This document shows positions 2,514 through 27,919 of a DNA stretch of 33,941 nucleotides, piece by piece. The stretch's first letter is position 1, and each line of letters begins with the position of its first letter. This DNA is from a virus. The notes beneath the pieces are model-generated. The model was given only the letters and a program-made list of their open reading frames with translations. It did no database searches and had not been told where the DNA came from. The DNA is taken from positions 1-33,941 of IMG/VR virus record IMGVR_UViG_3300047440_000535. One strand, given 5' to 3'. The position numbers and the translations under genes are program-made.

Positions 2514-2752
2514 TGGTCCCTCCACTGCCTCAGCAGCATCACGAGCTGCGCCCTGATCGCCCGGGCCCCCTGGTGCGAGCCGTTGCCGTCGAGGGCCGAG
2601 GCGAGCGAGGCCCAGCCGTCCGAGACCGTCGCCCCGAACAGCGTCACCTTCCACGCCCAGCGCTTCCGGGTCGGGTGCGAGGGGAACGGGTCGGGGTACT
2701 TCTCCACCCTCACCGCCCTCCGCGCCCGTGCCTCGATTGTCCGCGTCCTCAC
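2510..2752 (-). CDS. Hypothetical small basic protein
   Basis: This 80-residue protein of unknown function has a basic N-terminus, a middle with VEKYPDPFPSHP and TRKRWAWKVTLFG, and a helical C-terminus ending RQWRDQ. It starts with GTG in a GTGA overlap with the upstream zinc-knuckle gene and ends in a GTGA overlap with the next. Coding potential is inferred from the coupling and the absence of a better frame. No family is recognised. Confidence 0.6.
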   Translation of the reverse strand: MRTRTIEARARRAVRVEKYPDPFPSHPTRKRWAWKVTLFGATVSDGWASLASALDGNGSHQGARAIRAQLVMLLRQWRDQ

Positions 2753-2913
2753 TGCTTCACCTTCAGCTGCTCCCGCGTCTTCCAGCAGGTCGAGCACGTT
2801 GTCCACGGCCGCGCGTCTCTGAACTCGTGGCCCTTCCGGCGGCACTCCTCATCCCTCTTGCCCTGCTCGAGTGAGGCCATGAGCCTCCTCTCGCGCTCAT
2901 AGTCCTGGCACAT
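2749..2913 (-). CDS. Tiny protein with a His-Cys-x2-Cys knuckle
   Basis: This 54-residue protein begins at ATG 2913, overlapping the upstream TGA as TGATG, and ends by overlapping the next GTG start. The N-terminal half is a charged helix (YERERRLMASLEQGKRDEE). The C-terminal half holds C24, H29 and CSTC at 40-43, a possible zinc knuckle, and a Lys-rich end. Function is unknown. The neat fit between two overlapping starts and stops is the main reason to call it a gene. Confidence 0.6.
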   Translation of the reverse strand: MCQDYERERRLMASLEQGKRDEECRRKGHEFRDARPWTTCSTCWKTREQLKVKQ

Positions 2914-3173
2914 CAGATGTCATCCTCGCACGTGTCGCAGAGCGGGTATCCCTTCAGCGTCTTCTTCCCGCACCTCGAGCACTGGACCTCCGCCAGCACG
3001 CTCTGCCACCTCACCGCCGGCCTTCCCCACAGTCCGAACACTACCGCAGCGAGGCAGACGCATCCCACGTAGGTCCCCAGCCGCGACCATCCCTCGAGGT
3101 CACAGAGCGCTCCCCAGGCCGCACCGACGAGGAACAGCACCAGCACGTACAGCAGCCAGCCGCGTCTGTTCAT
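2913..3173 (-). CDS. Two-TM membrane protein with cytoplasmic CxxC tail
   Basis: This protein has 86 residues. Two hydrophobic helices (about residues 6-22 and 35-50) are followed by a C-terminal tail with CSRCGKKTLKGYPLCDTC, a compact four-cysteine zinc-ribbon pattern. Such a layout (membrane hairpin plus rubredoxin-like ribbon) is seen in many small phage and bacterial membrane proteins of unknown role. The ATG overlaps the upstream stop as ATGA. No function is assigned. Confidence 0.7.
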   Translation of the reverse strand: MNRRGWLLYVLVLFLVGAAWGALCDLEGWSRLGTYVGCVCLAAVVFGLWGRPAVRWQSVLAEVQCSRCGKKTLKGYPLCDTCEDDI

Positions 3174-3565
3174 GAGGGAATCCTACCCCGCATCTCCTCC
3201 GCAGCAATCGCCCTGTCGACCAGCGCCACGACCTCCGCGTGCCTGCGCACCGGGTCGTCGTTCCACGCAATGTAGCGGAATCCGTCGGTGGTGTTCAGAT
3301 CCTCCGGAGGCTCCCAGCCCACCAGCTGCCCGTTCAGGGCACGCTCGACCTCCACCCTGCGGCTGCCCGCCTTCTGCAGCTCGGCCTCGGTCACCTTCAT
3401 GATCCCTCCCTGGAGGCACCAGCACACTGCCTGCGCGTCGTGCGACGAGGTGGGCACAGCTCGCCCCTCAACCCGCGCCAGCCGTGCGTTGGTCCTCTGC
3501 GTCCACCGCTCCGGGGTCCCGATCAGGGCCCGCAGCGCCACCAGGTCGTCGAGCAGCTGGGTCAT
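3170..3565 (-). CDS. DUF6197-like hypothetical protein
   Basis: This 131-residue protein contains the pattern typical of the DUF6197 family: a TPERWTQ motif near residues 17-23, a DAQAVCWCLQG motif near 44-54, and the late segment WNDDPVRRHAEVVALVDRAIA. The family is widespread in phages and actinobacteria, and its function is not established. The ATG at 3565 overlaps the stop of the lipoprotein gene upstream (TGATG), and the stop overlaps the following membrane protein start. Membership is judged from memory of the motif set, without a profile search. Confidence 0.7.
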   Translation of the reverse strand: MTQLLDDLVALRALIGTPERWTQRTNARLARVEGRAVPTSSHDAQAVCWCLQGGIMKVTEAELQKAGSRRVEVERALNGQLVGWEPPEDLNTTDGFRYIAWNDDPVRRHAEVVALVDRAIAAEEMRGRIPS

Positions 3566-4107: not shown

Positions 4108-4430
4108 GTTGCACTCCCCGGACGTCGTCCGGCGTCAAGCCCCTTCTCACGCACCTCGAGCGCCTCGGCCACATGTCGGTCGAGGGGCGCACCACCCCGG
4201 CCGATGATCGTCAGGACCTGCACCGCCACGGTGGTCAGGGTCCAGGAGTCCGCGTCGAAGGTGTCCAGACGGAGCACCACCTCCATCTCCTCCATCTCGC
4301 GCAGGACGTCCGCGAGCTCCCGGCCCTCCCGGCCGGTCCAGCTCCGGAGCTCCGCGAGGGTCAGCGGGAGCTTGCTCGACAGCAGGGCCAGCTCGACCTC
4401 ACGGCGCACGTTGTCCTCCCTCAGCGTCAC
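4104..4430 (-). CDS. Hypothetical protein, winged-helix-like
   Basis: This 108-residue protein has a region [41 protein letters not shown] that reads like a winged HTH: a recognition-like helix followed by a short beta hairpin. It could be a small DNA-binding regulator or replication accessory. It uses a GTG start overlapping the TGA of the larger zinc protein upstream, and it ends overlapping the lipoprotein gene. The fold assignment is tentative. Confidence 0.65.
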
Positions 4431-5233
4431 TTCAGCACCTCCGCCTTGGTCGGCCTCGAGAAGAAGCCGAAGTGGGGCTCACGGTCCCCGGGGGTCACCT
4501 TGGCCTGGAACCGGACGCGCTGCCCGCGCTCCGTGCCCATCAGGGCGGACGGCATCGTGCCGTAGCAGAGCCAGGTGCCATCTCCGGCCGCAGACTCGAC
4601 CTCGACGGTCATCTTGACCACCGAGCCGTACACCCCATCCTGCACGCGCACGCCGACCACGACACCCTCGAGGGTCGCGCGCACGTCCTTGAACGGCACG
4701 GGCACCCGCACCGGGGCCGGCGCAGCCCTCTCGGCCGCGAGCTTCCGGACCAGCTGCTCCTGCTTCTCAGTGAGCCCCCAGCGGGCCCCCGTCTGCACGA
4801 GGCGGTCGCGGATGTCGCGGATGATCGGGTGGTCGACCTCGAGGAGCGGCACCAGGTCAGCGTGCTCGGCGTGCCAGGCAGCCAGGCGTGCGACCCGCTC
4901 CTGGCGCTCGCGCTCGAGGAGGCCCGCGGCCTTTGCCTCGCCCTCGGCTCGCCAGTCGCAGAACAGCTCCAGCTTGTCCGCGCAGTCGTGCCCGACCGAG
5001 ATGACCTCCCCGTCCTTGTGCTGGAACAGCGCACCGTACTTGTAGTGCGCGCCACAGATGTCGCAGCTGAAGATGCCACCATGGATGTTCGCCCCGCGCT
5101 CGCGGTAGGTCGCCAGGGCCTCGGTCACGTTGATGGCCGGCTGGAACAGGTCGGGCTCCGCCTGCGCGAAGTCGATGACGCTGTGGTAGTCCTCCGGGAC
5201 CAGCACGCCAGGGCGGTGGATGTCGGTCCTCAT
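4427..5233 (-). CDS. Phage zinc-binding protein with C-terminal OB-like domain (function unknown)
   Basis: This 268-residue protein carries, near residues 56-85, [12 protein letters not shown]72 and GHDCADKL, a pattern (CxxC, His, GxxCA) recurrent in uncharacterised phage proteins that may bind zinc. A charged helical middle follows. The C-terminal 90 residues ([21 protein letters not shown] onward) look like an all-beta OB-type or tail-attached domain. It starts at ATG 5233 in an ATGA overlap. A nucleic-acid-binding role is plausible from the domain combination, but nothing catalytic is visible. Confidence 0.75.
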
Positions 5234-5430
5234 AGGGGGTACTTCTCCAGTCCGATCTCGAGAGCCTGAGCGATGCGGCCAATCTCGGCCTGGATCACCA
5301 GGAGACCCTCCGGAGTCCCGAAGAACAGGGAGTTACGCTCGTGCTGGAGCTGGCTCTTGATGCTCGGATCGCTGACCTCACTGATGCGTCGGTCCAGGAA
5401 GGCCAGCTTGCTCTTGAGTTCGTTCTTCAT
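5230..5430 (-). CDS. Small coiled-coil protein
   Basis: This 66-residue helical protein is rich in Lys, Glu and Leu ([18 protein letters not shown], then QLQHERNSL) and is probably coiled coil. Its ATG at 5430 lies only 7 bases after GCCGATAG of the repeated promoter-like element at 5435-5467 and has no Shine-Dalgarno sequence in the usual place, so it is a candidate leaderless gene. It ends in an ATGA overlap with the next gene. Function is unknown. Confidence 0.65.
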
Positions 5431-5434
5431 ACCC

Positions 5435-5467
5435 TAGCTATCGGCTCCCACCGCCAGGGGACTCGAG
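5435..5467 (-). promoter_or_regulatory. Repeated bipartite promoter-like element, copy 1
   Basis: Read on the minus strand: CTCGAG (5467-5462), 17 bases, then CCGATAGCTA (5444-5435) preceded by G. TTCCGGAA lies just upstream of the first box. The ATG of the coiled-coil gene follows 7 bases after GCCGATAG. The TAG within the second box is also the stop codon of the upstream gene. Confidence 0.7.
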
Positions 5468-5704
5468 CTGATTCCGGAATCTCCGGCGGAAGTCCGCGAT
5501 GGCACGGCACTTGTCCCGGGCCCGCTGGAACGCGGCCCCCGGCGTGTCGCAGACGTCGCGCTCCGCGAAGTCGCTGTGCCAGCCGTCGAAGTAGTACAGC
5601 ACCCCCTCGCCGAGCCGCGCGACACCGCCCACCTCGCCGAGGAAGACCTCCGGGCCGTCCTCGGTGGCCAGCGCCACCCACACCGTGTCGCCCACCTGCC
5701 TCAC
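5438..5704 (-). CDS. Hypothetical protein (small beta-rich)
   Basis: This 88-residue protein of unknown function has a beta-rich N-terminal half (VGDTVWVALATEDGPEVFLGEVGGV) that resembles SH3-like small barrels. It is followed by a helical Arg-rich segment and the tail LESPGGGSR. That tail is encoded by the repeated promoter-like element, which overlaps the 3' end. The GTG start overlaps the upstream TGA. Confidence 0.65.
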   Translation of the reverse strand: MRQVGDTVWVALATEDGPEVFLGEVGGVARLGEGVLYYFDGWHSDFAERDVCDTPGAAFQRARDKCRAIADFRRRFRNQLESPGGGSR

Positions 5705-6060
5705 GACGCAATCCTCCCGCGGTGCCCTGGGCCCCGGATGGCGGCCAGGATCTGCGCCTGGGAGCCGGTCACCCGGTAGCAGAACTCCCGGCTGCCGAGG
5801 TCGAGCCGGACCTCTGCGTGGCCGAGCTCATACAGGTAGCCGACCCCCGCGACGGCCTCGGCCCGGCTCAGCTCGAGCTCGCGCATGAGGCCGGTCAGCG
5901 GCATCCAGCCGTCGGCCAGCGTGAACGTCCCTGTGCGCTCCGCGCGGGCCTGGACGGAGCGGCCGTCCATCGAGACCTGGAAGATGCCGAGGGTGATCAT
6001 GTCGTGCGCGAAGCGCTCGGCCCGCTCGGTCTTGAACTCGGTCAGGGCGTGCCAGGTCAA
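5701..6060 (-). CDS. Hypothetical protein, possible winged helix
   Basis: This 119-residue protein has the best start at TTG 6060, which overlaps the upstream TGA as TTGA and fits the coupled style of this genome. A region MPLTGLMRELELSRAEAVAGVGYLYELGHAEVRLDLG resembles a winged HTH (two helices then a beta hairpin). It could be a DNA-binding accessory protein. The start is uncertain because no ATG or GTG fits better. Confidence 0.6.
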   Translation of the reverse strand: MTWHALTEFKTERAERFAHDMITLGIFQVSMDGRSVQARAERTGTFTLADGWMPLTGLMRELELSRAEAVAGVGYLYELGHAEVRLDLGSREFCYRVTGSQAQILAAIRGPGHRGRIAS

Positions 6061-6458
6061 GTCACCCTCCGGAACTTCTCCAGCGCCAGCGCGAGGTCCG
6101 CCTGGCGTGCCTTGTCCCCGGGCTGGTCGTGGAAGTTGCGCGCCGCGCGGACGAGCGCCACCAGGTGCGAGGGGACGACCGAGCAGGACCGCTGGACGTC
6201 CTTGCGCCAGTTGGACTGCGCGAGGAGGCGGAACAGCTGCGTGCGGCGGTTCCCCTGCGATTGCAGCTGGAGGTGGTCCGCCAGGTGCTGCCCCCGCGTC
6301 GAGTCGAGGTAGTCCCGGGCCTGCTCCTCGGTGATCTTGAACGTGTCGATGAGGCAGGCCATGGCGCAGTCCCACCACAGTGCCGTCTGCCGCTCGTCGA
6401 CCTGGAGCCGCACCGTGCCTCGGAAGCCGTGGTCGGGGTTGTTGGACTCGAGCATCAC
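6057..6458 (-). CDS. Hypothetical helical protein
   Basis: This 133-residue, mostly helical protein has no recognised motif. It begins at GTG 6458 or the adjacent ATG 6455, overlapping the upstream TGA, and ends in a TTGA overlap with the next gene. The composition (Gln, Arg and Leu rich, a single Trp pair near residue 28) gives no functional clue. Confidence 0.65.
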   Translation of the reverse strand: MMLESNNPDHGFRGTVRLQVDERQTALWWDCAMACLIDTFKITEEQARDYLDSTRGQHLADHLQLQSQGNRRTQLFRLLAQSNWRKDVQRSCSVVPSHLVALVRAARNFHDQPGDKARQADLALALEKFRRVT

Positions 6459-10405: not shown

Positions 10406-10616
10406 CCTTCACGCAGTCCCAGTGCCGCCAGGGCTGGTAGGCCCTCCCCGGAGCGCCGGCCGGCGGGGGCTTGCCGCAGACCTCGCACACCGGGTGCCAC
10501 TGCTCGAGGAGGACTCCCACACACGGCAGCGGCTGGACCAGGAGGGAGCGGTGGTGCGCGTTCCAGGCGAACCCAACCCACCAGTCCCGGTACATGAACA
10601 GGAGGCGGATGCGCAT
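10386..10616 (-). CDS. Small hypothetical protein with CxxC
   Basis: This protein has 76 residues. It begins MRIRLLFMYRDWWVGFAWN (aromatic rich, strand-like), and residues near 48-51 form CEVC with a later HWDC, together a possible zinc site. The ATG overlaps the ssb stop as TGATG. Function is unknown. Confidence 0.65.
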   Translation of the reverse strand: MRIRLLFMYRDWWVGFAWNAHHRSLLVQPLPCVGVLLEQWHPVCEVCGKPPPAGAPGRAYQPWRHWDCVKGRVRSH

Positions 10617-10984
10617 CAGAACCTCGGCTCCTCGGCGGCACCCTGCTCGGGGCGGCCCGTGTCGGCGAACTCCCAGTTGTCCACGATCACGCGGAGCTTG
10701 GAGCGGGGCTTCCCCGTCTCCTTGTCGGTCCACTTGTCGGTCTGGTGGTGCCCGTCGACGAGGGCCGTGCTGCCCTTGCGGTGGTGCTGGGCGAAGACCT
10801 CCGCCCGCTTGCCGAACATCGTGCAGTCGATGAAGGTGGCCTCGTCTCGCCAGACCTCGCCGTCCTTGATCCGGCGGTTCACCGCGAGGGTGAAGTTGAT
10901 GCAGGCCGTCCCGTTGTCAGTCTTCCGGACCTCGATGTCCCGGACGAGGCGGCCGATCAGGGTGGTGCGATCGTAGTTGGTCAT
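10616..10984 (-). CDS. ssb: Single-stranded DNA-binding protein
   Basis: This 122-residue OB-fold protein of the bacterial SSB family coats single-stranded DNA during replication and recombination. The diagnostic N-terminus TTLIGRLVRDIEVRKTDNG, the INFTLAVNR strand and the WRDEATFIDCTMFGKRAE block are all visible. A basic beta hairpin region (DKWTDKETGKPRSKLRV) follows. The C-terminus ends EEPRF instead of the usual acidic DDDIPF tip, so interaction with host SSB partners may differ. The ATG overlaps the upstream stop as ATGA. Confidence 0.95.
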   Translation of the reverse strand: MTNYDRTTLIGRLVRDIEVRKTDNGTACINFTLAVNRRIKDGEVWRDEATFIDCTMFGKRAEVFAQHHRKGSTALVDGHHQTDKWTDKETGKPRSKLRVIVDNWEFADTGRPEQGAAEEPRF

Positions 10985-11720: not shown

Positions 11721-12226
11721 AGCTTGGTGACCTCGGCCGCAATCTGGCCCTCGGCCTTCTGGACGGCAGGGAGCGCCCGGCCCCAGAGCATGTGGGCCCA
11801 GGTGGACAGGACCTGCCCGGTCCGGCGGCCCTTGAGGAGGTCCGCGAGGTGCTGGCGGTTCCGGAGGAGGAACGGGACGAGGTAGGCGAGGATCACTCCC
11901 CACCAGAAGCTGTCGAGGCCGAGGAACTTGACGCCGGTGCTGGTCTTCATGTTGATGGTGCCGCCCTTCTCGTTGGTGATGTTGGTGACGCTCGTGTTGT
12001 GCGATGGCTCTGTGGCCTGGGATGCGCCGGCCCCCACAGCTCCAGCCCCGAACCCTCCCATGAGGGGGAAGTGGAGGACGACAGCGAAGACGAGGCCGAT
12101 GAGCCCTCCGAAGAGGAGCCGCCAGACCTTGCCCCAGAACTCCGGCCCGACGAGCGAGCCGAGCGCCGCGCAGCCCTCGAGGGCCAGCAGGAGGAGGATC
12201 ACCCCCATGTCACGCAGCCGCCTCAC
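11717..12226 (-). CDS. Membrane lipoprotein
   Basis: This 169-residue protein has an N-terminal signal with lipobox-like LEGC (cysteine about 19). A second hydrophobic segment (about residues 36-58, LLFGGLIGLVFAVVLHFPL) follows, then a Gly/Ala loop, a Thr/Asn-rich region, a third hydrophobic stretch (WWGVILAYLVPFLL) and a helical tail. It is an envelope protein; a lysis or exclusion role is possible but not shown. The GTG start overlaps the dNMP kinase stop. Confidence 0.65.
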   Translation of the reverse strand: MRRLRDMGVILLLLALEGCAALGSLVGPEFWGKVWRLLFGGLIGLVFAVVLHFPLMGGFGAGAVGAGASQATEPSHNTSVTNITNEKGGTINMKTSTGVKFLGLDSFWWGVILAYLVPFLLRNRQHLADLLKGRRTGQVLSTWAHMLWGRALPAVQKAEGQIAAEVTKL

Positions 12227-12798
12227 GGCAGCCCCAGGTCGGTCAGGATCAGCTTCATGGTCTGCCTCAGCTCCTCAGTGGTCCCCGAATTGTACCCCGT
12301 CCGGACAGCAACGCCGAGGTCGGACAGGTCGACGTCGACGCGGGAGTCACCCTCGAAGGTCGTCCCCTTGCGGATCATCCTGACGTGGAACACTCGGTCC
12401 ACCCCGAGGCGACGGATCACCGGCAGCGCGTCGTCGCGCCGGCCGAGGTCCGGGACGATCCAGACGTTGGTGCCCGAGGCCCCGTCGAGGTCCATGACAG
12501 TCATCTCGAGGTCCAGGCCGAGCACCTCCGGTCCGTGGACCGTGCTCAGGTAGCGCCACATGTTGATGTAGGCCGTCCTGGGTGAGGCCCCGTTGAACTT
12601 CCAGTGGCGGGCATCCTTCCGCTCATCGAACTGGTCGAATGGGCCGGAGATGCCGTAGGCCCGGTGCGTGAAGTCCTTGAGGGACGAGGCCAGGTGCACC
12701 ACCCGCGCGAGCGGCGGTCCACCCAGCAGGTCCTGCAGGATCCCTGCGGCGGTGTCCTTGCCGGCCCGCGGCGGTCCACTGATGAAGATGACCCTCAC
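12223..12798 (-). CDS. Deoxynucleoside monophosphate kinase (T4 gp1-like)
   Basis: This 191-residue P-loop kinase starts VRVIFISGPPRAGKDTAA, with Walker A GPPRAGKDT at residues 8-16. The GKDT form and the following LKDFTHRAYG region fit phage dNMP kinases, which raise (modified) dNMPs to diphosphates. In this phage the natural substrate would include 5-hydroxymethyl-dUMP made by the TS-like enzyme at 24.8-25.8 kb, an inference from pathway need. The start is GTG at 12798 in a GTGA overlap with the MazG-like gene; the Walker A lies directly at the N-terminus, as expected. Confidence 0.8.
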   Translation of the reverse strand: MRVIFISGPPRAGKDTAAGILQDLLGGPPLARVVHLASSLKDFTHRAYGISGPFDQFDERKDARHWKFNGASPRTAYINMWRYLSTVHGPEVLGLDLEMTVMDLDGASGTNVWIVPDLGRRDDALPVIRRLGVDRVFHVRMIRKGTTFEGDSRVDVDLSDLGVAVRTGYNSGTTEELRQTMKLILTDLGLP

Positions 12799-13379
12799 GA
12801 TCGCCTCTGCCTCTCGACCTCGGCTGCGACGTCGGGCTTGGCCCAGCCCTCGGGCTTCTGCCACTTGCCCCCCACGACACCGACCTTGCGCAGGTTGGCC
12901 GCGTGGACGAGCTCCCAGACCGGCCGCATGTCGACCCCGCACTCGACGAGCGCTCCGGCCGCAATGTAGATCAGGTCGATGGCCTCCTGGGCGATGGCCG
13001 CGACGTCGTCACCCAGCAGCGCTGCGGCCAGCTCGCGCGCCTCCTCGAGCATGAGCTTGCGCCTCTGGATTGCTGTGGCACCGTCTGGGAGCCCAGGGGA
13101 CTCCCTGACAGGACTGCCCAGGTGCTCGTGGGCGGCACGCACGTCGTCGTCTGGCCATCGCGCCAGCTTCTGGATCGCCTCGCGCACGCCCAGCGTCTCG
13201 TCGGCCCGGCGGAGCCGTAGCTCGGACCGCAGGATCATGGACTCCTGCCGCAGCCGCGCGAGCTCCGCGGACTGGTGCTGCGCCGCCTGGGCGGCATCCT
13301 GCAGCTTGATCCGGACGAACGGGTTGCGCTCGTCCTGGGCCAGGAGCTCAAGGACCTCTGCGGGGTCGTCGCGGCTCAC
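12795..13379 (-). CDS. MazG-like nucleotide pyrophosphohydrolase
   Basis: This protein has 194 residues. The C-terminal half holds the all-alpha NTP-PPase pattern: KLMLEEARELAAALLGDD (the EExxE metal site), EAIDLIYIAAGALVECG, and WELVHAANLRKVG followed by GGKWQKPEGWAKPD, as in phage MazG/PRA-PH-type proteins. The N-terminal half is a coiled coil. It would cleave NTPs or dNTPs to monophosphates, either feeding dNMP pools or lowering alarmone. It starts with GTG overlapping the GGDEF gene's TGA, and the next gene is a dNMP kinase, so the two form a nucleotide-metabolism pair. Confidence 0.8.
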   Translation of the reverse strand: MSRDDPAEVLELLAQDERNPFVRIKLQDAAQAAQHQSAELARLRQESMILRSELRLRRADETLGVREAIQKLARWPDDDVRAAHEHLGSPVRESPGLPDGATAIQRRKLMLEEARELAAALLGDDVAAIAQEAIDLIYIAAGALVECGVDMRPVWELVHAANLRKVGVVGGKWQKPEGWAKPDVAAEVERQRRS

Positions 13380-13852
13380 CGTCGGCTCTTGTGCAGGAAC
13401 ATGGCCGCGTCCGCACTGGCGAGGTCGCGGCCCATGCCGGCGCTCACGCTCACGCTGGGGTCGACCTGGGAGCGCCACTCGCGGATCTGGTCGCGCACCC
13501 GGCGGGCCCCGTCCTTCGACCCGACCTGCACCGCGAACTCGTCCCCACCGGCCCGGAAGGCGACGTGGTCGCTGTCGCGGATGATCCCCGCGAGGTGGCT
13601 GGCGAACTCGCGGAGGATCAGGTCCCCGTGCGAGTGGCCGAGGGGGTGTGAGTCCTGGGCAGCCTTGAAGCCGTCCAGGTCCGCGTAGACATACCAGCAG
13701 TCTCCTGCGCGCCGGTCGAGCATGCGTCGGTTGCCGAGGCCGGTGAGAGTGTCGGTGTCTGCCTCGCGGCGGACCTCGATGAGCGCCCGCTCGAGTGAGT
13801 TGACGCGGTCCACGAGCTGGGTCACGGTGAGGTCGAGCTGTGCCTTGTTCAT
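13376..13852 (-). CDS. Stand-alone GGDEF diguanylate cyclase
   Basis: This 158-residue protein is a short coiled-coil N-terminus plus a full GGDEF domain. It carries DTLTGLGNRR (34-43), DLDGFK (58-63), an intact AGGDEF at 101-106 and VSVSAGMG, ending in a DAAMFLHKSR motif. The active-site residues needed to make cyclic di-GMP from two GTP are present. RDSD at 92-95 resembles the inhibitory I-site, but the spacing is one residue longer than usual. There is no sensor domain; the N-terminal helix probably dimerises it. A phage diguanylate cyclase could shift the host between motile and sessile states or interfere with cyclic-dinucleotide immunity. The ATG overlaps a 13-codon mini-ORF as ATGA. 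Confidence 0.9.
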   Translation of the reverse strand: MNKAQLDLTVTQLVDRVNSLERALIEVRREADTDTLTGLGNRRMLDRRAGDCWYVYADLDGFKAAQDSHPLGHSHGDLILREFASHLAGIIRDSDHVAFRAGGDEFAVQVGSKDGARRVRDQIREWRSQVDPSVSVSAGMGRDLASADAAMFLHKSRR

Positions 13853-13890
13853 GACGTCCTGTAGCCGGGTCCGCTGAGGAACCGAACCAT
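13849..13890 (-). other. 13-codon mini-ORF bridging two genes
   Basis: This mini-ORF (MVRFLSGPGYRTS) begins at an ATG overlapping the upstream TGA (TGATG) and ends in an ATGA overlap with the GGDEF gene. It may serve only to keep ribosomes moving between the two genes. The DNA includes GGACCCGGCTAC, the same 12 bases as in the spacer of promoter-like element copy 2, so it may instead be a relic of that element. Confidence 0.35.
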
Positions 13891-14246
13891 CAATCCTCGA
13901 TGACCGCGGAGTAGACCTGCGACAGGCAGACTCCCCAGATGGCGTCGTGCGTGGTCACGCAGTGGTGCTCGTCCGGGACCCAGCGCATGGCATGGGCCCA
14001 CTCGTGCATCAGCGCGTCCCGGCGCTCGTCGGCCGTCGTCGTCCGGATGCGGCCACCGCGGGGCTTGAGCCGGCGGCAGACCGTGATGTTGATGTGCCTC
14101 CCGCTGCGGCTGGCCTGGGTCCAGCCGAAGGAGTTGTTGGGCACGTTGGTCCAGCGGACCCGGACCGGTGTGCCCATGGGGAGCGGGCACTCTGTCCGGA
14201 GCGCCCGCAGCGTCCTGCGCCACAGCCTCTGTCCTGTCACCCTCAC
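13890..14246 (-). CDS. HExxH protein (putative zinc metalloprotease-like), 118 aa
   Basis: This small protein has HEWAH at residues 81-85, the zinc-binding HExxH signature, preceded by DERRDALM. No third zinc ligand can be assigned with confidence (candidates are His/Asp in DEHHCVTTHD). It is one of three HExxH proteins within 3 kb. It uses a GTG start in a GTGA overlap with the phosphoesterase gene. It could be a true peptidase or a zinc-binding structural protein; the substrate is unknown. Confidence 0.65.
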   Translation of the reverse strand: MRVTGQRLWRRTLRALRTECPLPMGTPVRVRWTNVPNNSFGWTQASRSGRHINITVCRRLKPRGGRIRTTTADERRDALMHEWAHAMRWVPDEHHCVTTHDAIWGVCLSQVYSAVIED

Positions 14247-15559
14247 TCGATCACCTCCTCGAAGTGGAAGCCGGGGAGCCAGAGCCCCTGGGGATTCATC
14301 ACCGGGACGTTCCGGCCACGGTACTCATAGCCCTCGACAATGGCGTGGTCGTCGTCGCAGATGACGGGATACTGGCGCACGTGCCCGCCCTCGGTCAGGA
14401 AGGCGACCCCGAAGCCGGACTGCCAGCCGGTCGAGACCCCCTTCATGTAGTTGCGGCCCGCCATGGAGGTGCAGCCCATCGGGGTTGTCATCCACGAGAG
14501 GGTGCGCTGGGACTCCGAGCTCCCGAAGTACAGGTGGGCCCGGTGGACGTGGCCGCTCTGGCCGGACCGGCCCGCCTCGCGGAGCTCGAGCGCGGCGGGG
14601 TACTGGCCGAGGTGCGTGCCATGGTGGACGCGGTAGAAGCCGTGCAGGAGGCGGCCAGGAGCGTCCTGCTCCTGCCCGGCGGGGGATGCGATGCTGCCGC
14701 CCTGGGCCAGCTCCACGTCGAGGTCCTCGAGGCCCGCCAGGACGTCGAAGCGCAGCGTGCGGAGGTTGGCGAAGGCCGGGGCGACTTGCGTGAGGTAGGA
14801 GGCCAGGCGGTCCAGCCCGTGGTTGCCCGCCCCCCAGATGATGCGTGCGCTGGGGAGGACCGCGCGCACCTGGCGGAACATCTCCCGCGCGAAGTCAAAC
14901 TCAAGCTGCAGCGAGGTCGTCCGGCCCGGGACCTTCGGGTGGCGGCTGATCTCGCTCCCGTCGATGATGTCACCGTTCAGGTACACGACCCCAGGCTGGA
15001 GGTCGCGGCAGGCCGAGAGGAAGCATGCCCAGACGAACGGTGAGAGGTAGGTGGCGTGGGTGTCCGAGATGCTGAGCACCAGCTCCGTCCCAGTCAGCTC
15101 GCGCTCGAGCTCGGGGTGCTTGCGCACGTGCGGCAGCAGGCAGCGCTCGATGTAGCGGGCCGTGTGGTCCCTCTTGGACTGCTCTGCGATCGCGCCGCGC
15201 TTGAGGCGGGTCCCTGCCTGGTCCTCAAGGCCGGCCACCTGCTTGGCGAGCTCAAACTGTCCCCACTGCTCGTCGATGAACTCGATGGGGTAGTGGCCGA
15301 ACAGCCGGTAGCGCTTCCGGCTCAGCGTGCGGAACTGCCAGTGGGGGTTGGTCTCGCGGTCCTCCGCGACCCGGATGAGGTCACCCAGCATGTCCTCGAT
15401 CGTGGGCCGGTCGTGGGACTTGCCAGCGCGCAGCTGCTCCTCGTCGGCCCGCAGCCGCGCCTTCCGCTCGGCGAGCTTGCGCCGCTCGCGCTCGCTCAGG
15501 CGGACGGACTCGGGGGCTGAGAGGAACTCGCCGAGGGGGTCAGTGCTGCTGGATTCCAA
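14243..15559 (-). CDS. Calcineurin-like metallophosphoesterase
   Basis: This protein has 438 residues. The N-terminal 150 residues are charged and helical. The catalytic domain follows with the complete motif series: SDTH (165-168), GDIID (196-200), GNH (245-247), then HHGTH and SGHVHRAH, which ligate two metals. Members hydrolyse phosphodiesters in nucleic acids or nucleotides. In phages such proteins are often SbcD-like nucleases or cyclic-nucleotide phosphodiesterases; the target here is unknown. Its location two genes from a diguanylate cyclase is notable, but a functional link is speculation. The ATG overlaps the upstream gene by 20 bases. Confidence 0.85.
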   Translation of the reverse strand: MESSSTDPLGEFLSAPESVRLSERERRKLAERKARLRADEEQLRAGKSHDRPTIEDMLGDLIRVAEDRETNPHWQFRTLSRKRYRLFGHYPIEFIDEQWGQFELAKQVAGLEDQAGTRLKRGAIAEQSKRDHTARYIERCLLPHVRKHPELERELTGTELVLSISDTHATYLSPFVWACFLSACRDLQPGVVYLNGDIIDGSEISRHPKVPGRTTSLQLEFDFAREMFRQVRAVLPSARIIWGAGNHGLDRLASYLTQVAPAFANLRTLRFDVLAGLEDLDVELAQGGSIASPAGQEQDAPGRLLHGFYRVHHGTHLGQYPAALELREAGRSGQSGHVHRAHLYFGSSESQRTLSWMTTPMGCTSMAGRNYMKGVSTGWQSGFGVAFLTEGGHVRQYPVICDDDHAIVEGYEYRGRNVPVMNPQGLWLPGFHFEEVIE

Positions 15560-15797
15560 GGCAGTCCTCCATGTGGTTCCTCACGGCCCTGTGGTCGTGC
15601 GTGTAGCCATAGTGCTTGGCGAGGACCTCGCGCACCATGTTGCGCCACTTCACCGAAGTTGCCCCCGTCCTGCGCGCCTCGTTGAACCGCAGGAGGACGT
15701 CCTCCACGGCGGCCCGGTTGGGATGGCGGCAGGTCGCACAGTGGACGCTGGGACGGTGGAGCTCAGTGGACAGGAAGGAGTCTAGCGGATCGGGCAT
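15540..15797 (-). CDS. Small CxxC + helix-turn-helix-like protein
   Basis: This protein has 85 residues. CATCRHPNRAAVEDVLLRFNEA is followed by VKWRNMVREVLAKHYGYTHDHRAVRNHMEDC. It combines a CxxC knuckle, helices and a resolvase-like or terminase-like HTH ending with RNHMEDC, a recurrent phage DNA-binding design. It may be a transcription or packaging accessory. The ATG lies 35 bases inside the upstream gene; no better start is seen. Confidence 0.65.
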   Translation of the reverse strand: MPDPLDSFLSTELHRPSVHCATCRHPNRAAVEDVLLRFNEARRTGATSVKWRNMVREVLAKHYGYTHDHRAVRNHMEDCLGIQQH

Positions 15798-16302
15798 GAG
15801 TAACTTCTCCGGGGTGAATCATATCCTGGCAATCATCCAGGAGCTCAAACGGCCCGTCGCGCTCGACGATGCGCATGCCGCGGGAGATGCGGAAGGACAC
15901 GCTGTACTCCTGGCCCCAGGTCAGGCCGTGCGGGTCCTCGTCTGGCCGGAGCTTGGGACCTGCGACGCAGTGGGCCCACTCGTGCACGAGGGTCTCGGAC
16001 ATCTCCATGTCGGGCGATGTCACGTTGAGCTGGATGAGCCAGCCGAGCCGGCCGAACTGGGAGCGGCCGTACAGGTTCTCCCGGTCGAGGTTGACGACCT
16101 GGATGACGACCGGGGCCTCAGTCGGGTCCCCAGCCCGCAGGCGCTGGAGCACGGCGGAGGTGATCTCCCCCAGGACTGGCGCACGCGGCTGTGATGGGTC
16201 GTCTGGTTGGGTTGGGACCCCTGAGCCGGGTTGCGAAGTCGTGGGGAGGCCCGGTGCGCCCACCGAGTGGCACGCGCAGAGGAGCAGCAGGGCTGCGATC
16301 AT
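15763..16302 (-). CDS. HExxH lipoprotein, 179 aa
   Basis: An N-terminal hydrophobic signal (MIAALLLLCAC, lipobox-like cysteine at 11) is followed by a Pro/Gln-rich linker and a domain with VHEWAH at 106-111 (HExxH) and later HGLTWGQEY. It is predicted to be exported and membrane-anchored, so it would act on the envelope or outside the cell. A start at GTG 16311 is also possible. It is the second of three HExxH proteins here. Confidence 0.65.
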   Translation of the reverse strand: MIAALLLLCACHSVGAPGLPTTSQPGSGVPTQPDDPSQPRAPVLGEITSAVLQRLRAGDPTEAPVVIQVVNLDRENLYGRSQFGRLGWLIQLNVTSPDMEMSETLVHEWAHCVAGPKLRPDEDPHGLTWGQEYSVSFRISRGMRIVERDGPFELLDDCQDMIHPGEVTHARSARLLPVH

Positions 16303-16315
16303 CCGCCTCACACCC

Positions 16316-16909
16316 TCATTGTACCCCGGCCGGGGGCGGAGGGGTAGCGCGGCGCATCGCGGCCAGGGCGAGCCCACGGGCACGGAGCTCGGCCCGGCGC
16401 TCCTCGGAGATGAGCTTGGGAGGCGTGAACCGGACCTTGTGGCGCTTGAAGGACAGGGCGAGGATGTTGCGGGCCGCAGCGCCGAGGTGCGCCCCCACCA
16501 GCGTCAGGAAGGCCTCGGCGAACGGCCAGTGGTGGCCCGTCCTCGGCGTGCAGATGTGGGCGAGCTCGTGGAGGCAGACCACCTTGGTGTAGCCCCAGGG
16601 GGCCAGCCGGATCCGGCGCTGGAAGGACTGCGCATTGCAGCCGTGGCCCTTCAGCACGGACACGCTCGGCTTCTCGGTGTGGTTCCTCTTGCAGAGCGCC
16701 TTCCACATCGCGGACTCGGTCACGCTGTGGATGAACTTCTGGCACTCCTCGAAGGTCATGCGCTCGGAGCCGATCTTGAGCACCGCCTCGGCGGAGTACA
16801 GCCGCTGCTTCTTGGAGTCCCGGTAGGGGATGTAGTGCCAGCGGCCGGCGTGCTGGACATTGAAGTGTCCCACCTTGTGCTCCGGCTCGGTCGGGTCGCG
16901 CTTGATCAT
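16316..16909 (-). CDS. HExxH metallohydrolase-like protein, 197 aa
   Basis: This cytoplasmic protein has HELAHIC at 114-120 and HHWPF at 126-130. The HExxH followed about 8 residues later by a His matches the arrangement in SprT-like and related minimal zincin domains. The N-terminal part is unrecognised (SprT proteins act on DNA-protein crosslinks, but that is not shown here). The C-terminal tail is basic and then Pro-rich. The ATG overlaps the upstream stop as ATGA. Confidence 0.75.
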   Translation of the reverse strand: MIKRDPTEPEHKVGHFNVQHAGRWHYIPYRDSKKQRLYSAEAVLKIGSERMTFEECQKFIHSVTESAMWKALCKRNHTEKPSVSVLKGHGCNAQSFQRRIRLAPWGYTKVVCLHELAHICTPRTGHHWPFAEAFLTLVGAHLGAAARNILALSFKRHKVRFTPPKLISEERRAELRARGLALAAMRRATPPPPAGVQ

Positions 16910-18601: not shown

Positions 18602-20806
18602 TCAGAACCTCGGCTCGGTCTCGGGGGCGATCCTCACCGAGCCGTCCGGGCAGATCGTCACGCCGAGCTGCGGCCCCTCGCCGTTGGTGTAGACCCAGCG
18701 GGGCTTGCCCTCGAAGCGCAGCTTGCGCCGCCTCCAGCCGAGCTCGAGCATCACGCTGCCGAGCCGCTCGTTGTGGTCCTGGCTGCGCTGCCCCTCGGGG
18801 ATGCCGGCCGCGGCCCAGATGTCCACGGCCCGGATCTTGCCCTTCTGGTCGCCCAGCGCCTCGGACAGGTTGTGCAGGAAGGGGTCCTCCACCATGCGCT
18901 CCTCCTGCTGCTCGGCGGCAGCTGCGTACAGGGACGGGTCGAGCCTCACCGGGTCGCCCCGGGCCTCGCAGAAGGCAGCCTCGGCCCAGATCTGGTCACG
19001 GTCGCGGCGGAGCGCCTCGAGGTCGACGGCCCCTGTGACCACGGGCCAGTAGCGCCTGTTGCCGTGCGAACTCCGGAGGTAGCGGTCCGAGTTGGTCGTC
19101 CCGATCATGATGAACTGCCGCGGGAGCTCGGTGGTCATCCGGCCGTAGGCGAGCCGCGACCGGTCGACGCGGCGGGAGAGGCAGGCGTTGAGCGCCTCGA
19201 CGTCGGAGCGCCTCATGCCGGTCAGCTCACCCGCCTCGATGATCCAGCGGCCCGCGACGGCCTCCATGAAGCGCTTGGTGTCCGCGCCCAGGGGCAGGTC
19301 GTCGCTGAACCAGTCCTCGTTGACGGCCAGCGTGGCAATCAGGGAGGACTTGCCGCGCCCCTGCGGCCCCTCCAGGATGAGCATCTCGTCAAACTTCGCG
19401 CCCGGCTGGCGGATCCTGCGCACGGCTGCCACTAGGGTCAGCCGCCCGACGGCGCGCACGTAGGGGTTGGACTCGGAGCCAGCATAGATCGGGAGCCACT
19501 CGCTGATGCGCTCGCGGCCATCCCACTGGAGGCAGTCGAGGTACTCGCGGACGGGGTGCCGGCGGTTGGCCAGGGCCAGCGCCTTCATGATCCCCACTGC
19601 CCGGTCCATGCTGAGGTTGAAGCCGTAGCGCTCCTCGAGGTAGCCCCACAGCACGGTCGCTGCGTTGTCGCTGAGCCCCGGGCCGTAGCCGGCCAGGCCG
19701 TGGACCAGCAGCCGGTCGGAGAAGTCGTCCTGCTCGAACTCCACACCCAGCTTGGAGATGGCCATGCGCACGTTGGCGATGGTCGGCCGGGGCTTGCCGC
19801 CCTCGTCCTCGGCGAAGTCGCCTGTGGAGTCCTTCGCCCGCCGGATCTGGCGCAGGGCGTACTCGTGGGACTTGCGCCCCAGGCGGGTCACCGTCTTCGA
19901 GATGCCGAAGCGGGGGTCAGTGATGACGGAGTACGTGACCTCGTCGGGCACACCGGCCCTGACGAGGTCGCAGACCACAAAGAAGAGGGCCTCACTGTCC
20001 GATGGCCACCGCTCCGGCCGGTCCGGGTCGCGCCCCTGGGCGATGACCTGGCGGCAGGTCTCGGAGACGTTCTCCGGGAGGTCGGCCAGCCCGCCGATCC
20101 GGACGATGTTCTCGGGGTTGATCCGCAGGGCGGGGGTGTCGCCCTCCTCCACGGTCGGGGGGAGCGCCCGCCCGAACGTCTGCAGGAGGTGGTCTCCCTC
20201 GAGGAGCTCGATGACGCACGCCATCGCGGGGGTGCGGCCCTTCTTGCGCTTCCGCTCGTCCGGCCAGTTGACCGTCCCGGGCAGGCGCATGATCCGGTCC
20301 GCGTTGTGCGTCCCGTTGTCGCCCTCGAGGTCGAGCACGAGCTGTATGTTGTAGCGCTCGAGCTCCTCGGCCCGGTCCAGCTTCCCGTCGATGACGAACG
20401 GCTCCGACAGCCTCCAGAACCCCTGGTAGCCACCGCCGGAGAAGCAGATGGCAGTGGGGCGGGGGAGGTGGTCCCGGAGGCGCTTGAGGATGCGGGTGCG
20501 CTCGGCCTCCAGGTCCTCACCAGCACGCGGGTCCAGGTCGACGTGGAGCCAGTGGACGGCCTTCAGGTCCTCCTTCGAGGCCTTCTTCTGGACCTCGTGG
20601 AGGAGCTCCGCCACACTGAAGTAGACGTTGTCCGCTGCGTGGCGAGCGAGCCACTCGGCGAGCTCGGCATGCCTGGCTGTGTCGAACGTCGCGGTGTCGA
20701 TGCGCTTCTTGTCTGTGGCGATCGAGGTCAGGGCCCAGGCCCGGCCGGGGTGGAAGGCCTCGAGGAATGCCGTGGCCACGGCCGGGTCGTGGCGGAGGTC
20801 GGTCAT
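18602..20806 (-). CDS. Primase-helicase: AEP-like N-terminus plus VirE/SF3-type ATPase
   Basis: This 734-residue replication protein has an N-terminal domain with WLHVDLDPR (86-94), where the Asp pair fits an archaeo-eukaryotic primase-polymerase active site. Next are CFSGGGYQGFW (121-131) and HNADRIMRLPGTVNWPD (168-183), both typical of RepB/prim-pol proteins. A linker leads to an ATPase domain with Walker A EGPQGRGKSS (479-488), WIIEAGE (521-527) and the sensor IMIGTTNSDRYL (566-577), as in virulence-associated-E/D5-like helicases. It should prime and unwind at the fork with the adjacent family A polymerase. The ATG at 20806 overlaps the nuclease gene; an upstream extension is open but lacks conserved content. 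Confidence 0.9.
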   Translation of the reverse strand: MTDLRHDPAVATAFLEAFHPGRAWALTSIATDKKRIDTATFDTARHAELAEWLARHAADNVYFSVAELLHEVQKKASKEDLKAVHWLHVDLDPRAGEDLEAERTRILKRLRDHLPRPTAICFSGGGYQGFWRLSEPFVIDGKLDRAEELERYNIQLVLDLEGDNGTHNADRIMRLPGTVNWPDERKRKKGRTPAMACVIELLEGDHLLQTFGRALPPTVEEGDTPALRINPENIVRIGGLADLPENVSETCRQVIAQGRDPDRPERWPSDSEALFFVVCDLVRAGVPDEVTYSVITDPRFGISKTVTRLGRKSHEYALRQIRRAKDSTGDFAEDEGGKPRPTIANVRMAISKLGVEFEQDDFSDRLLVHGLAGYGPGLSDNAATVLWGYLEERYGFNLSMDRAVGIMKALALANRRHPVREYLDCLQWDGRERISEWLPIYAGSESNPYVRAVGRLTLVAAVRRIRQPGAKFDEMLILEGPQGRGKSSLIATLAVNEDWFSDDLPLGADTKRFMEAVAGRWIIEAGELTGMRRSDVEALNACLSRRVDRSRLAYGRMTTELPRQFIMIGTTNSDRYLRSSHGNRRYWPVVTGAVDLEALRRDRDQIWAEAAFCEARGDPVRLDPSLYAAAAEQQEERMVEDPFLHNLSEALGDQKGKIRAVDIWAAAGIPEGQRSQDHNERLGSVMLELGWRRRKLRFEGKPRWVYTNGEGPQLGVTICPDGSVRIAPETEPRF

Positions 20807-21207
20807 TGGCGCAGCAGGTTGAGGAGGCGGTCCCAGCCGTCCTTGTCGTCCGTCCGCCACGTCAGGTCGGCCGCAGCTCGGAGCTGCGCCGGGCTTGACT
20901 CCCCGATCAGGTCGGCCGCGACGTCCCCGCGGAGCAGCAGCCACTCCGAGGCGACCTTCAGGAGGAGATGGGCCCGCCCGCCCTTCATGACGCGCTGGCG
21001 CAGCCAGAGGCGCTGCTGGACCGTGAAGTGGGGGATCCGGAGGTGCCAGCGGTCCGAGCTCGGCCAGCTCGGCACCTCCTTGTTCTCGATCCAGCCGCCG
21101 ACATAGTTGATGTCCGGCGTGCCGGGGTGGACAGCGTTCTCGACGCGGACCGGGTGGAGCGGTCGCAGCGCGTCCATCACGAGCCGGCTCATGCTCTGCT
21201 CGCTCAC
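20803..21207 (-). CDS. VRR-NUC-like PD-(D/E)xK nuclease
   Basis: This protein has 134 residues. HPVRVENAVHPGTPDINYVGGWIENKE contains the nuclease core: E23, PGTPD (28-32) and EnK (41-43). This is the arrangement in VRR-NUC/Holliday-junction-resolvase-like phage enzymes, which cut branched DNA during replication and packaging. The C-terminal half is helical. It uses a GTG start overlapping the dCMP deaminase TGA and is coupled to the primase-helicase. Confidence 0.8.
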   Translation of the reverse strand: MSEQSMSRLVMDALRPLHPVRVENAVHPGTPDINYVGGWIENKEVPSWPSSDRWHLRIPHFTVQQRLWLRQRVMKGGRAHLLLKVASEWLLLRGDVAADLIGESSPAQLRAAADLTWRTDDKDGWDRLLNLLRQ

Positions 21208-21644
21208 AGGGGGAACTTCCTCACATCGACTCCGGCCTCGAGCAGCATGGCCTCGGAGAGGGCCATCGCATCGCGCCAGCGTTCAGGAACGGGGATCCAG
21301 CGGGGGAATCGTACCGCGCGGATCCCAGACTGGATGATCAATTTTGAGCATTCAGAGCACGGTGGGAGCGGGAACAGGTACAGCGTCGAGCCGCGGACCG
21401 GTCCGGGGGAGTTGAGGATGGCGTTGGCCTCGGCGTGGACCACCATCTTGTACTTGAGGTCCCTGTCCGCGAGGCGTTCAGGAGTGTCCTGAATGCCTCG
21501 CGGCAGTCCGTTGTAGCCGAGGCTCAGCACCCGCTTCAGGTCGTCGACGATGACGGCACCGACCTTGGTGGACGGGTCTTTTGACCACGTTGAGACCATG
21601 TCGGCCAGCTGGAGGAACCGGACATCCCAGTTGGATTGGCTCAC
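21204..21644 (-). CDS. Deoxycytidylate (dCMP) deaminase
   Basis: This 146-residue enzyme converts dCMP to dUMP, the substrate of the TS-like hydroxymethylase encoded upstream. The zinc and catalytic motifs are HAEANAI (70-76) and PPCSEC (94-99), and the N-terminal SKDPSTKVGAVIVD block and GYNGLPRG are typical of the dCMP deaminase family. The start is GTG 21644, in a GTGA overlap with the DNA polymerase stop. Supplying dUMP fits a phage that replaces thymine with an hmdU-derived base. Confidence 0.92.
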   Translation of the reverse strand: MSQSNWDVRFLQLADMVSTWSKDPSTKVGAVIVDDLKRVLSLGYNGLPRGIQDTPERLADRDLKYKMVVHAEANAILNSPGPVRGSTLYLFPLPPCSECSKLIIQSGIRAVRFPRWIPVPERWRDAMALSEAMLLEAGVDVRKFPL

Positions 21645-23527
21645 TTGATCTCCCCCCAACTCGGTCCCGTCTCCGCGTCCACCTTCATCGGCACCTCGCA
21701 CGGCACTGCGTCACGCATGATCTCCGACAGACTGGCCGAGGTCTCCGGCCCGGAGGACAGGTCGAGCTCGTCGTGGACCTGGAGCTGCAGCGGGATGCTG
21801 GCGTCATCCGCGTCCACCATCGCCTTCTTGGTCTGGTCCCCGCTCGACCCCTGGATCAGGCGGTTGAGCGCCTTGTGGCACCAGTCCCACCCGCCCTTGC
21901 CGTTGGGGGGGAACCGGCAGCGCCGGCCGAGGACCGTGCGGATGAACCCGCGCTGCGCGGCCCGGTCCTCGCAGCGCTTGGCCATGGCCCGGACGAACGG
22001 CATGCCGCTGTCGAACTTGAGCAGCACGGCCTCGCCCTCGGGCCCGGCCGCGTCCACCATCTTGTTCTGCCGCCTCGAGAACACCTTGACGGTCGGCAGC
22101 TTGAGCTTGCGGCACATCTTGCCCCCGCCCATGCCGTAGCAGCGCCCCAGGAGGATCTCCTTGGCGTCCTTCCGCTTCAGGCCGGTCCACTCCGCAGACA
22201 TCTCGTGGTAGTCCAGCCGGGGGTTGTCGATGTAGCGCTGGCGCGCAGCCGCGGCCCCCTCGCAATTCGAGATGAACGCCCAGTGCACCAGCCAGCGGAT
22301 CTCCTGCTGGGAGTAGTCGTGGCAGGCCCAGGGGAGGTCGCCGTCGGGGAGGAAGTTGGAGCGCCACATCGGCCCCAGCACCGGGTCGCGGGCCGGCTGC
22401 TGCTGGAGGTTGGGGTCGCACGAGCTGAGCCGGCCGTAGCGGGCCCCGGAGTCGTCGCCACCCTCCTCGTCGTCGGTCTTGCGCAGCTGGTTGAACGTCG
22501 GGTGGATCCGGTCGCCGATGGCGTGCTCCCTCATCGAGGCGACGTAGGAGGTGCGCACCTTGTTGATCTGCCTCGAGCGGCGCAGCAGGCCGGCCACGGG
22601 GTGCTCGATGGAGTCGAGGAGCTCCTTGGTCACGCTCGGCTTCTTGGTGGCCGGCGTGAGCGGCACGTCCACTCCCACGTGCTCCAGGACCTTGGCCAGT
22701 GGGCCGGCGGTCCAGAGGTCGTTGGAGGACAGGCTGATGCCAGTCAGGCGCTTGACCTCCGCCAGGACCTCCTCCTCCATGAAGCCCAGGCGGGTCTCAG
22801 TCTGGGCCAGCCGGTCGAAGGAGATGCGGACCCCGCGGCGGCGCATCTTGACGAGGACGGGGAGCAGCCGGCTCTCCAGGTCGAAGATGCCCTCGAGGTC
22901 CTGCTCTGCAATGATCCTCTCCTGGCGGCGGAGGAGCGCGAGCGGCTTGCGTGCGTCCGCCTCACCGTAGGCCCCGACGTGCTTGGAGTGGAGCCGCCAC
23001 AGCCCAGCCTTCGGGTCGAGGCCGAAGGCAGCAGCCGCAGCACGGAGGTGCGCCTCGTCCTTGCCCGGCAGGCCGTGGCGTCCCAGGACGTCGTCGAGGC
23101 CGTATCCGTTCTGCAGCTCGTCGATGAGGGGCTCAGCCACGAGCACGTCGAGCCAGCGGTGGGGGCGGAAGTGGACCCTGGCCTCCTCCAGGAAGTCATA
23201 CTCATACTGGAGGTTGGCCCCGACGAGGCTGCCGGTGAAGTCGCGGGCCTGGTCGCGCAGGTACGCCAGGACCTGGACGCGGTCCAGGTTGCCCCCGGCC
23301 TCGTGGCCGAACGGCAGGTAGCCACCAGGGCCGTCCTCGATGGCGAATGAGACCCCGACGATGCTGGCACCGCGGCGGACACCCGGGCCGAGCTGCTTCA
23401 GCTTTGCGTCGTGCGTCTCGAGGTCGATGGAGACCCGCTTGGCACCCCGCCAGGAGGGGAGCGAGGAGAGTTGCGGGGGAGTCCAGCTGGAGCGGGGCTC
23501 CAGGAGGGGGAGGTCAGAGAGGGACAT
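21641..23527 (-). CDS. Family A DNA polymerase with 3'-5' exonuclease
   Basis: This 628-residue replicative polymerase has the exonuclease motif I DLET at 35-38 and the exo II-like GANLQYEYDF at 103-112. Polymerase motif A is DYSQQEI (404-410), the O-helix is RKDAKEILLGRCYGMG (452-467) and motif C is QVHDEL (583-588). In the O-helix the residue aligned to E. coli Phe762 is Leu460. It would have to use the modified dNTP (hmdUTP). No 5'-3' exonuclease domain is present, as usual for phage polymerases. The ATG overlaps the upstream gene by 14 bases, and the stop is coupled to dCMP deaminase. Confidence 0.95.
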   Translation of the reverse strand: MSLSDLPLLEPRSSWTPPQLSSLPSWRGAKRVSIDLETHDAKLKQLGPGVRRGASIVGVSFAIEDGPGGYLPFGHEAGGNLDRVQVLAYLRDQARDFTGSLVGANLQYEYDFLEEARVHFRPHRWLDVLVAEPLIDELQNGYGLDDVLGRHGLPGKDEAHLRAAAAAFGLDPKAGLWRLHSKHVGAYGEADARKPLALLRRQERIIAEQDLEGIFDLESRLLPVLVKMRRRGVRISFDRLAQTETRLGFMEEEVLAEVKRLTGISLSSNDLWTAGPLAKVLEHVGVDVPLTPATKKPSVTKELLDSIEHPVAGLLRRSRQINKVRTSYVASMREHAIGDRIHPTFNQLRKTDDEEGGDDSGARYGRLSSCDPNLQQQPARDPVLGPMWRSNFLPDGDLPWACHDYSQQEIRWLVHWAFISNCEGAAAARQRYIDNPRLDYHEMSAEWTGLKRKDAKEILLGRCYGMGGGKMCRKLKLPTVKVFSRRQNKMVDAAGPEGEAVLLKFDSGMPFVRAMAKRCEDRAAQRGFIRTVLGRRCRFPPNGKGGWDWCHKALNRLIQGSSGDQTKKAMVDADDASIPLQLQVHDELDLSSGPETSASLSEIMRDAVPCEVPMKVDAETGPSWGEIK

Positions 23528-27680: not shown

Positions 27681-27919
27681 AGTCCCATCTTCCTTCTGAG
27701 GTCAGCGTTGAGCCTGGCCTCCTCGGCCTGGAGCCGAGCAACTGAGGCCTCGCGGATCCGGTTGGCCGCCTCGGCCAGCATGTTGCCCGCGTTCATGAGG
27801 GCGTCCGAGAGGCAGGGGCGGTAGATTGTCTGCTTGTTGTCGAGGTCGATCTCCAGGCACCCGCAGGGGCGCTGGCGCTGGGCCACGACCTTCGGCTGCT
27901 CAGGGGGTTGGTCAGTCAT
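27677..27919 (-). CDS. Small cluster protein with CxC motif
   Basis: This protein has 80 residues. The N-terminal RPCGCLEIDLDNKQTIYRPC could hold a small metal site, and the C-terminal half is a charged helix (LAEAANRIREASVARLQAEEARL). Function is unknown, but it is sandwiched with overlaps between the radical SAM gene and the kinase gene, so it may be a partner or chaperone of the modification enzymes. Confidence 0.6.
   Translation of the reverse strand: MTDQPPEQPKVVAQRQRPCGCLEIDLDNKQTIYRPCLSDALMNAGNMLAEAANRIREASVARLQAEEARLNADLRRKMGL

Follow-up and report, generated by a model that had tools for sequence, protein, structure and literature searches.

In GGDEF enzymes the subunits pair and two GTP molecules are joined across the dimer. 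Genes for such domains have been annotated in phages for years and in many isolates, although neither an enzyme assay on one of them nor a measured activity for a phage enzyme of the type considered here was found in the literature searched. Stand-alone GGDEF proteins are annotated in the Yuavirus (AN14_48, 156 residues) and Vojvodinavirus (LK3, CN1, CN2 and FP1) isolates of the Mesyanzhinovviridae, and phage polyvalent proteins have been reported to contain GGDEF domains, with a suggested interference with host nucleotide signalling (Iyer et al. 2017, PMC5512222). The remark in the preliminary description of the present DNA that phage-carried diguanylate cyclases are unusual is therefore too strong. 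The polyvalent-protein domains are compact phage domains like the one analysed here, but they lie inside proteins of thousands of residues. The Panoptes OptS (mCpol) protein is likewise a small stand-alone palm-domain cyclase, but its GGDEF motif is nearly absent and it is a bacterial defence gene paired with OptE (PMC12657218), whereas the motif described below is canonical and no partner effector was recognized beside its gene (OptE itself being outside the search). The subject here is a clade of phage GGDEF proteins whose substrate pocket carries a glutamine and a two-residue insertion.

The window is the entire 33,941-base virus record, which is classed as linear and is possibly a fragment. 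It has no close named relative by DNA comparison and contains no tRNA genes; the nearest isolates by its DNA polymerase are Pseudomonas phages such as PAO1_Ab18/Ab19 and PaMx11, at about 55% identity (tblastn). The features discussed are collected in Table 1.

Table 1. Features of the GGDEF gene and of its surroundings in the window.
Feature	Position	Strand	Basis
Compact stand-alone GGDEF protein, 158 aa	13376..13852	minus	ATG start; PF00990 5e-15; AlphaFold2 model
N-terminal helix, residues 3-31, predicted dimerising stalk	13760..13846	minus	Model secondary structure and DgcB alignment
Substrate pocket D58-L-D-G-F-K63-A-A-Q66-D-S-H-P-L-G-H-S-H-G-D77	13622..13681	minus	Alignments, including profile alignment to PleD
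RxxD motif R92-D95, I-site-like	13568..13579	minus	Alignments
GGDEF motif, residues 102-106, D104 = metal ligand	13535..13549	minus	Sequence; invariant in clade
C-terminus K155-S-R-R-stop, Lys = PleD K442, domain end	13376..13390	minus	Alignments
Single-strand DNA-binding protein (SSB)	10616..10984	minus	phrog_44 1.4e-37; syntenic in L088, L091
Deoxynucleoside monophosphate kinase-like ORF	12223..12942	minus	phrog_139 1.5e-18; syntenic in L088, L091
MazG-like nucleotide pyrophosphohydrolase (PRA-PH), GTG start	12795..13379	minus	PF01503 2e-14; phrog_671 3e-18
Small SprT/zincin-like protein between phosphoesterase and GGDEF genes	13890..14246	minus	PF10263 E 0.003, below Pfam cut-off
Calcineurin-like metallophosphoesterase	14243..15559	minus	phrog_221 4e-21; adjoins GGDEF gene also in L088, L091
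Primase-helicase, VapE-like domain, same gene block	18602..20944	minus	PF05272 8e-67
DNA polymerase	21641..23527	minus	phrog_17 6e-92

The GGDEF reading frame has no internal stops, and its product matches PF00990 with an E value of 5.2e-15 (56 bits against a Pfam cut-off of 23.8). An AlphaFold2 model calculated from a 24-sequence alignment (mean pLDDT 95.6, pTM 0.86) consists of an N-terminal helix and a trimmed GGDEF fold. In comparisons with VIA-align, the modelled domain superimposes on the GGDEF domain of WspR (3i5b; Z 18.0, rmsd 1.7 over 128 residues) and on 4wxw (rmsd 1.5 over 125), and the full chain (1-158) superimposes on DgcB across both its coiled coil and its GGDEF domain (Z 16.9, rmsd 1.9 over 155); with the predicted model as the query, Z values of 15-18 were obtained to 50 listed GGDEF-type entries. 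Score and predicted fold confirm that the protein belongs to the GGDEF family. A second domain was looked for and none was detected, and residues 3-31 are modelled as one helix, in agreement with the earlier statement that the protein has no sensory domain. It has in common with WspR, PleD and DgcB the fold, the metal ligands, an equivalent of D344 and the layout of helix followed by GGDEF domain; unlike them, it lacks a receiver or sensor domain, is shortened at the C-terminus and in the helix after the NRR motif, and has a different base-contacting segment. The closeness of the model to these active cyclases, including the stalk helix, would favour an active enzyme.

Alignment with PleD equates D58 with the metal ligand D327, K63 with the phosphate contact K332 and D77, which is invariant in the clade, with the guanine contact D344. 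The metal ligands D58 and D104 and the GG[D/E]EF signature are present and clade-invariant, so the description of a stand-alone protein retaining the metal-binding and GGDEF residues holds, as does its numbering of D104 and E105. What it missed is that Gln66 replaces N335 of PleD, the second base-contacting residue, and that two residues are inserted after Gln66 and before the next conserved Gly-His (Q-D-S-H-P-L-G-H compared with N-D-T-F-G-H in PleD). The name diguanylate cyclase is thus backed by an apparently intact catalytic centre, but it goes further than a pocket in which one of the two base contacts is replaced throughout the clade. Because the alignments place Gln at the N335 guanine contact in all clade members, the protein is filed under the GGDEF family rather than as a proven diguanylate cyclase. 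The Yuavirus and Vojvodinavirus proteins (34-38% identity to that of the window) are similar in being about 150-156 residues long, sensor-less and near replication genes, and in having a compact domain with a short ending (S-x-G-x-G-x-D, AD, K); they differ in keeping Asn at the base contact and in the absence of the insertion, and Yuavirus has SGDEF where the window protein has GGDEF.

Searches of viral contigs with profiles and peptide patterns produced ten further distinct relatives in uncultivated phage contigs of 12 to 156 kb; a single-sequence search of these contigs with the window protein gave nothing, alignments being needed to find the relatives. All 11 aligned clade sequences have the Gln and the two-residue insertion, including three (L088, L094 and L096) recovered by a profile search with peptide patterns that did not demand Gln. 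Residues D58, K63, D67, D77, GGDEF and A147-D148 are identical in 11 of 11, and Lys155 is present in all except L088, which has Arg. Close pairs within the clade give dN/dS values of 0.11-0.19, indicating purifying selection, while distant pairs are near saturation and their values are not interpretable. The gene is conserved beyond chance, since it is kept in ten other phage-contig sequences under this constraint and its position is kept in L088 and L091.

A FastTree phylogeny (151 columns, support values approximate) places the window group in one clade with support of 0.87, or 0.93 when one Actinomycetota sequence is included. The Yuavirus and Vojvodinavirus sequences fall in a separate, neighbouring grouping with the polyvalent-protein GGDEF domains (0.90 for the Yuavirus sequences). 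A profile built without the window protein gives it 163 bits, against 77 bits for the top-scoring cellular GGDEF sequence, on which grounds a recent import from bacteria was rejected. An exact Gln-plus-insertion pattern, which like all such patterns misses variant sequences, matched once in 84,980 bacterial and archaeal species genomes, in an Actinomycetota metagenome-assembled genome, there as the last domain of a larger ORF. Together, these comparisons depict a distinct and almost exclusively phage-borne GGDEF group that appears to have an altered substrate pocket. In the cellular match (JAHWKL010000082.1, minus strand, about 1867 to 2), the compact GGDEF domain is at the C-terminus and the part of the ORF upstream of it looks, by eye, like a diiron oxygenase.

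The altered pocket raises the question of the product. In viral contigs the exact patterns were found as Gln with insertion in eight, Gln without insertion in none and Asn with insertion in one, the last being an unrelated polyvalent protein; among 246 Actinomycetota genomes the canonical Asn pattern occurs in 215 and Gln at the canonical spacing in none. This co-occurrence would suit a pocket rebuilt around Gln66 and the insertion in an active enzyme with a different product (cGAMP, c-di-AMP, or else a dinucleotide that is mixed or linear), and this product could be a competitor of the cyclic-nucleotide signals used in host defence; Asn/Ser recognition of guanine or adenine does matter in mCpol and GGDEF enzymes (PMC12657218). 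The cGAMP synthase GacA, of the Hypr type, resembles the window protein in having GGDEF rather than GGEEF and an altered base pocket, but in GacA the D344 position is the one altered, from Asp to Ser, whereas the window protein keeps Asp77 at that site and changes the Asn position. Mutants of GacA that combine Asp at this site with GGDEF are specific for GTP, and in GacA Asn339 makes a sugar-face contact (PMC6456294). Since this aspartate, the driver of GTP specificity, is kept in all clade members in place of the Ser/Thr of Hypr enzymes, and since Gln is a conservative swap for a sugar-edge contact, a different product appears unlikely. The more specific proposal, in which a phage-specific clade produces a dinucleotide that is not c-di-GMP, whether cyclic or linear, and uses it to jam host cyclic-nucleotide immunity or in replication, is judged improbable.

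Several features of the chain could instead indicate that efficient catalysis has been lost and that the protein binds GTP, c-di-GMP or a partner. Of the phosphate contacts equivalent to K332, K442 and R446 of PleD, K63 and K155 are kept, but the chain stops three residues past K155, so that the R446 position lies beyond its end. Two parts of the fold are reduced, the helix that follows the NRR motif and the stretch leading up to the final helix; the short post-NRR helix was dismissed as a unique trait, because some Actinomycetota GGDEF proteins share it. One extra residue separates R92-D95 from GGDEF relative to PleD, which displaces the RxxD motif from the I-site spacing of five residues before GGDEF. 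With Gln in the pocket, these changes fit a loss of catalysis, and the Gln at the guanine contact of every member, the missing R446 position and the shortened domain would each count against a c-di-GMP cyclase. On the other hand, the metal ligands, GGDEF and K63 do not vary among the 11 divergent sequences, which evolve under purifying selection, whereas degenerate GGDEF receptors usually lose the GGDEF motif, and a non-catalytic role does not seem likely. The invariance of the catalytic residues throughout the clade and the purifying selection in close pairs argue rather for activity, and it is probable that the window protein is an active dinucleotide synthase.

The surrounding genes form a phage replication block encoding a polymerase, a primase-helicase, dCMP deaminase, thymidylate synthase, the phosphoesterase, the MazG-like protein, the dNMP kinase and SSB. 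The GTG start of the MazG-like gene overlaps the GGDEF stop codon (GTGA), which suggests coupled translation of the two. L088 and L091 keep the order phosphoesterase, GGDEF, dNMP kinase and SSB, and in L090 and L092-L095, a second lineage, the GGDEF neighbours are an HNH-like endonuclease, an exonuclease, an HD 5'-nucleotidase and a primase. Because these neighbours differ, the GGDEF gene can be said to recur in early-type blocks with varied partners. Replication and nucleotide-metabolism neighbours wherever examined, including the overlapping MazG-like gene, could also mean that the enzyme has no signalling role but supports the nucleotide metabolism or replication of the phage, perhaps as a source of short linear dinucleotides or as a drain on GTP. 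This is very improbable, as no known GGDEF enzyme works in this way, and such gene blocks also contain host-takeover genes. The conserved placement among polymerase, primase-helicase, kinase and SSB genes, and among exonuclease, HD nucleotidase and primase genes in the second lineage, counts in favour of the reading set out below, in which the enzyme would be made early in infection.

The phosphoesterase gene is, as had been noted, two genes upstream of the GGDEF gene. A general pairing of the two does not follow, as seven of nine phage records contain a phosphoesterase domain, yet it is next to the GGDEF gene in only three of the phages examined and is far off or not found elsewhere. The phosphoesterase encoded in the window has no detectable sequence relative in the PDB, and related enzymes are present in Streptomyces, Mycobacterium and other phages. 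The proximity is a weak sign of a make-and-break pair, and with adjacency limited to three phages and the phosphoesterase a general phage gene, such a pair is not claimed. A phage-internal c-di-GMP circuit was also rejected: PilZ and EAL domains were not found in seven phage records, which are possibly fragments, and any c-di-GMP effect would hence run via host proteins.

The reading that is somewhat favoured overall is an active, sensor-less and dimerising GGDEF cyclase that most likely makes c-di-GMP and raises it during infection. We infer that the N-terminal helices would join two copies into a dimer, that each subunit would bind one purine nucleotide, most likely GTP, and that catalysis by the dimer would form a cyclic dinucleotide, most likely c-di-GMP. 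Expression would probably occur together with the surrounding replication and nucleotide-metabolism genes, and since there is no sensor domain activity would follow expression, the signal rising early in infection without an environmental trigger. As the main product, c-di-GMP is the best guess, held with modest confidence; it is not a safe one because the Asn-to-Gln change falls on the second base contact. It would act on host receptors that govern motility, surface structures and adhesion. Precedents by analogy for a benefit to the phage may be seen in Bordetella LK3 lysogens, which form 2-4 times more biofilm in two strains (LK3 has a compact GGDEF gene, to which the effect is not itself tied; PMC8471281), and in the YIP peptides of PB1-like phages, which raise host c-di-GMP by binding YfiN (PMC9145820). 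That the benefit would come through host behaviour rather than immunity or replication is nevertheless doubtful.

The clade offers a small, confidently predicted protein with a clear test residue (Gln66, with the insertion), and several phage lineages carry relatives. If the protein is active, this would show that phages themselves synthesize a bacterial second messenger; if its product differs, it would represent a new specificity for the GGDEF superfamily, perhaps used in counter-defence.

Other observations concern the remaining window genes and other phage GGDEF loci. The small ORFs flanking the phosphoesterase gene (13890-14246 and 15763-16383) have weak SprT-like matches and HExxH-like motifs, and a similar motif was seen by eye in 16316-16909. 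The window also encodes a DNA photolyase-like protein (27916-29292; phrog_9252, 2e-197) and, at 30434-31672, a weak match to uracil-DNA glycosylase, with relatives encoded close to the GGDEF gene in L086 and L089. In Bacillus phage G, the GGDEF gene gp350 (2746-3510) is two genes from the metallophosphoesterase gene gp352 (4190-6273), an arrangement like that of the window. GGDEF domains of the polyvalent type occur in very large phage ORFs in L054, L105 and L166, the motif being degenerate in L166. A 727-residue phage ORF (L151, 7273-9453) combines a weak N-terminal head-maturation-protease match (phrog_1028, E 4e-4) with a compact C-terminal GGDEF domain. L036 and L038 encode a small phage GGDEF protein of about 148 residues that keeps the Asn, and its frame continues from an upstream repeat-rich stretch (RGQPHRG-like).
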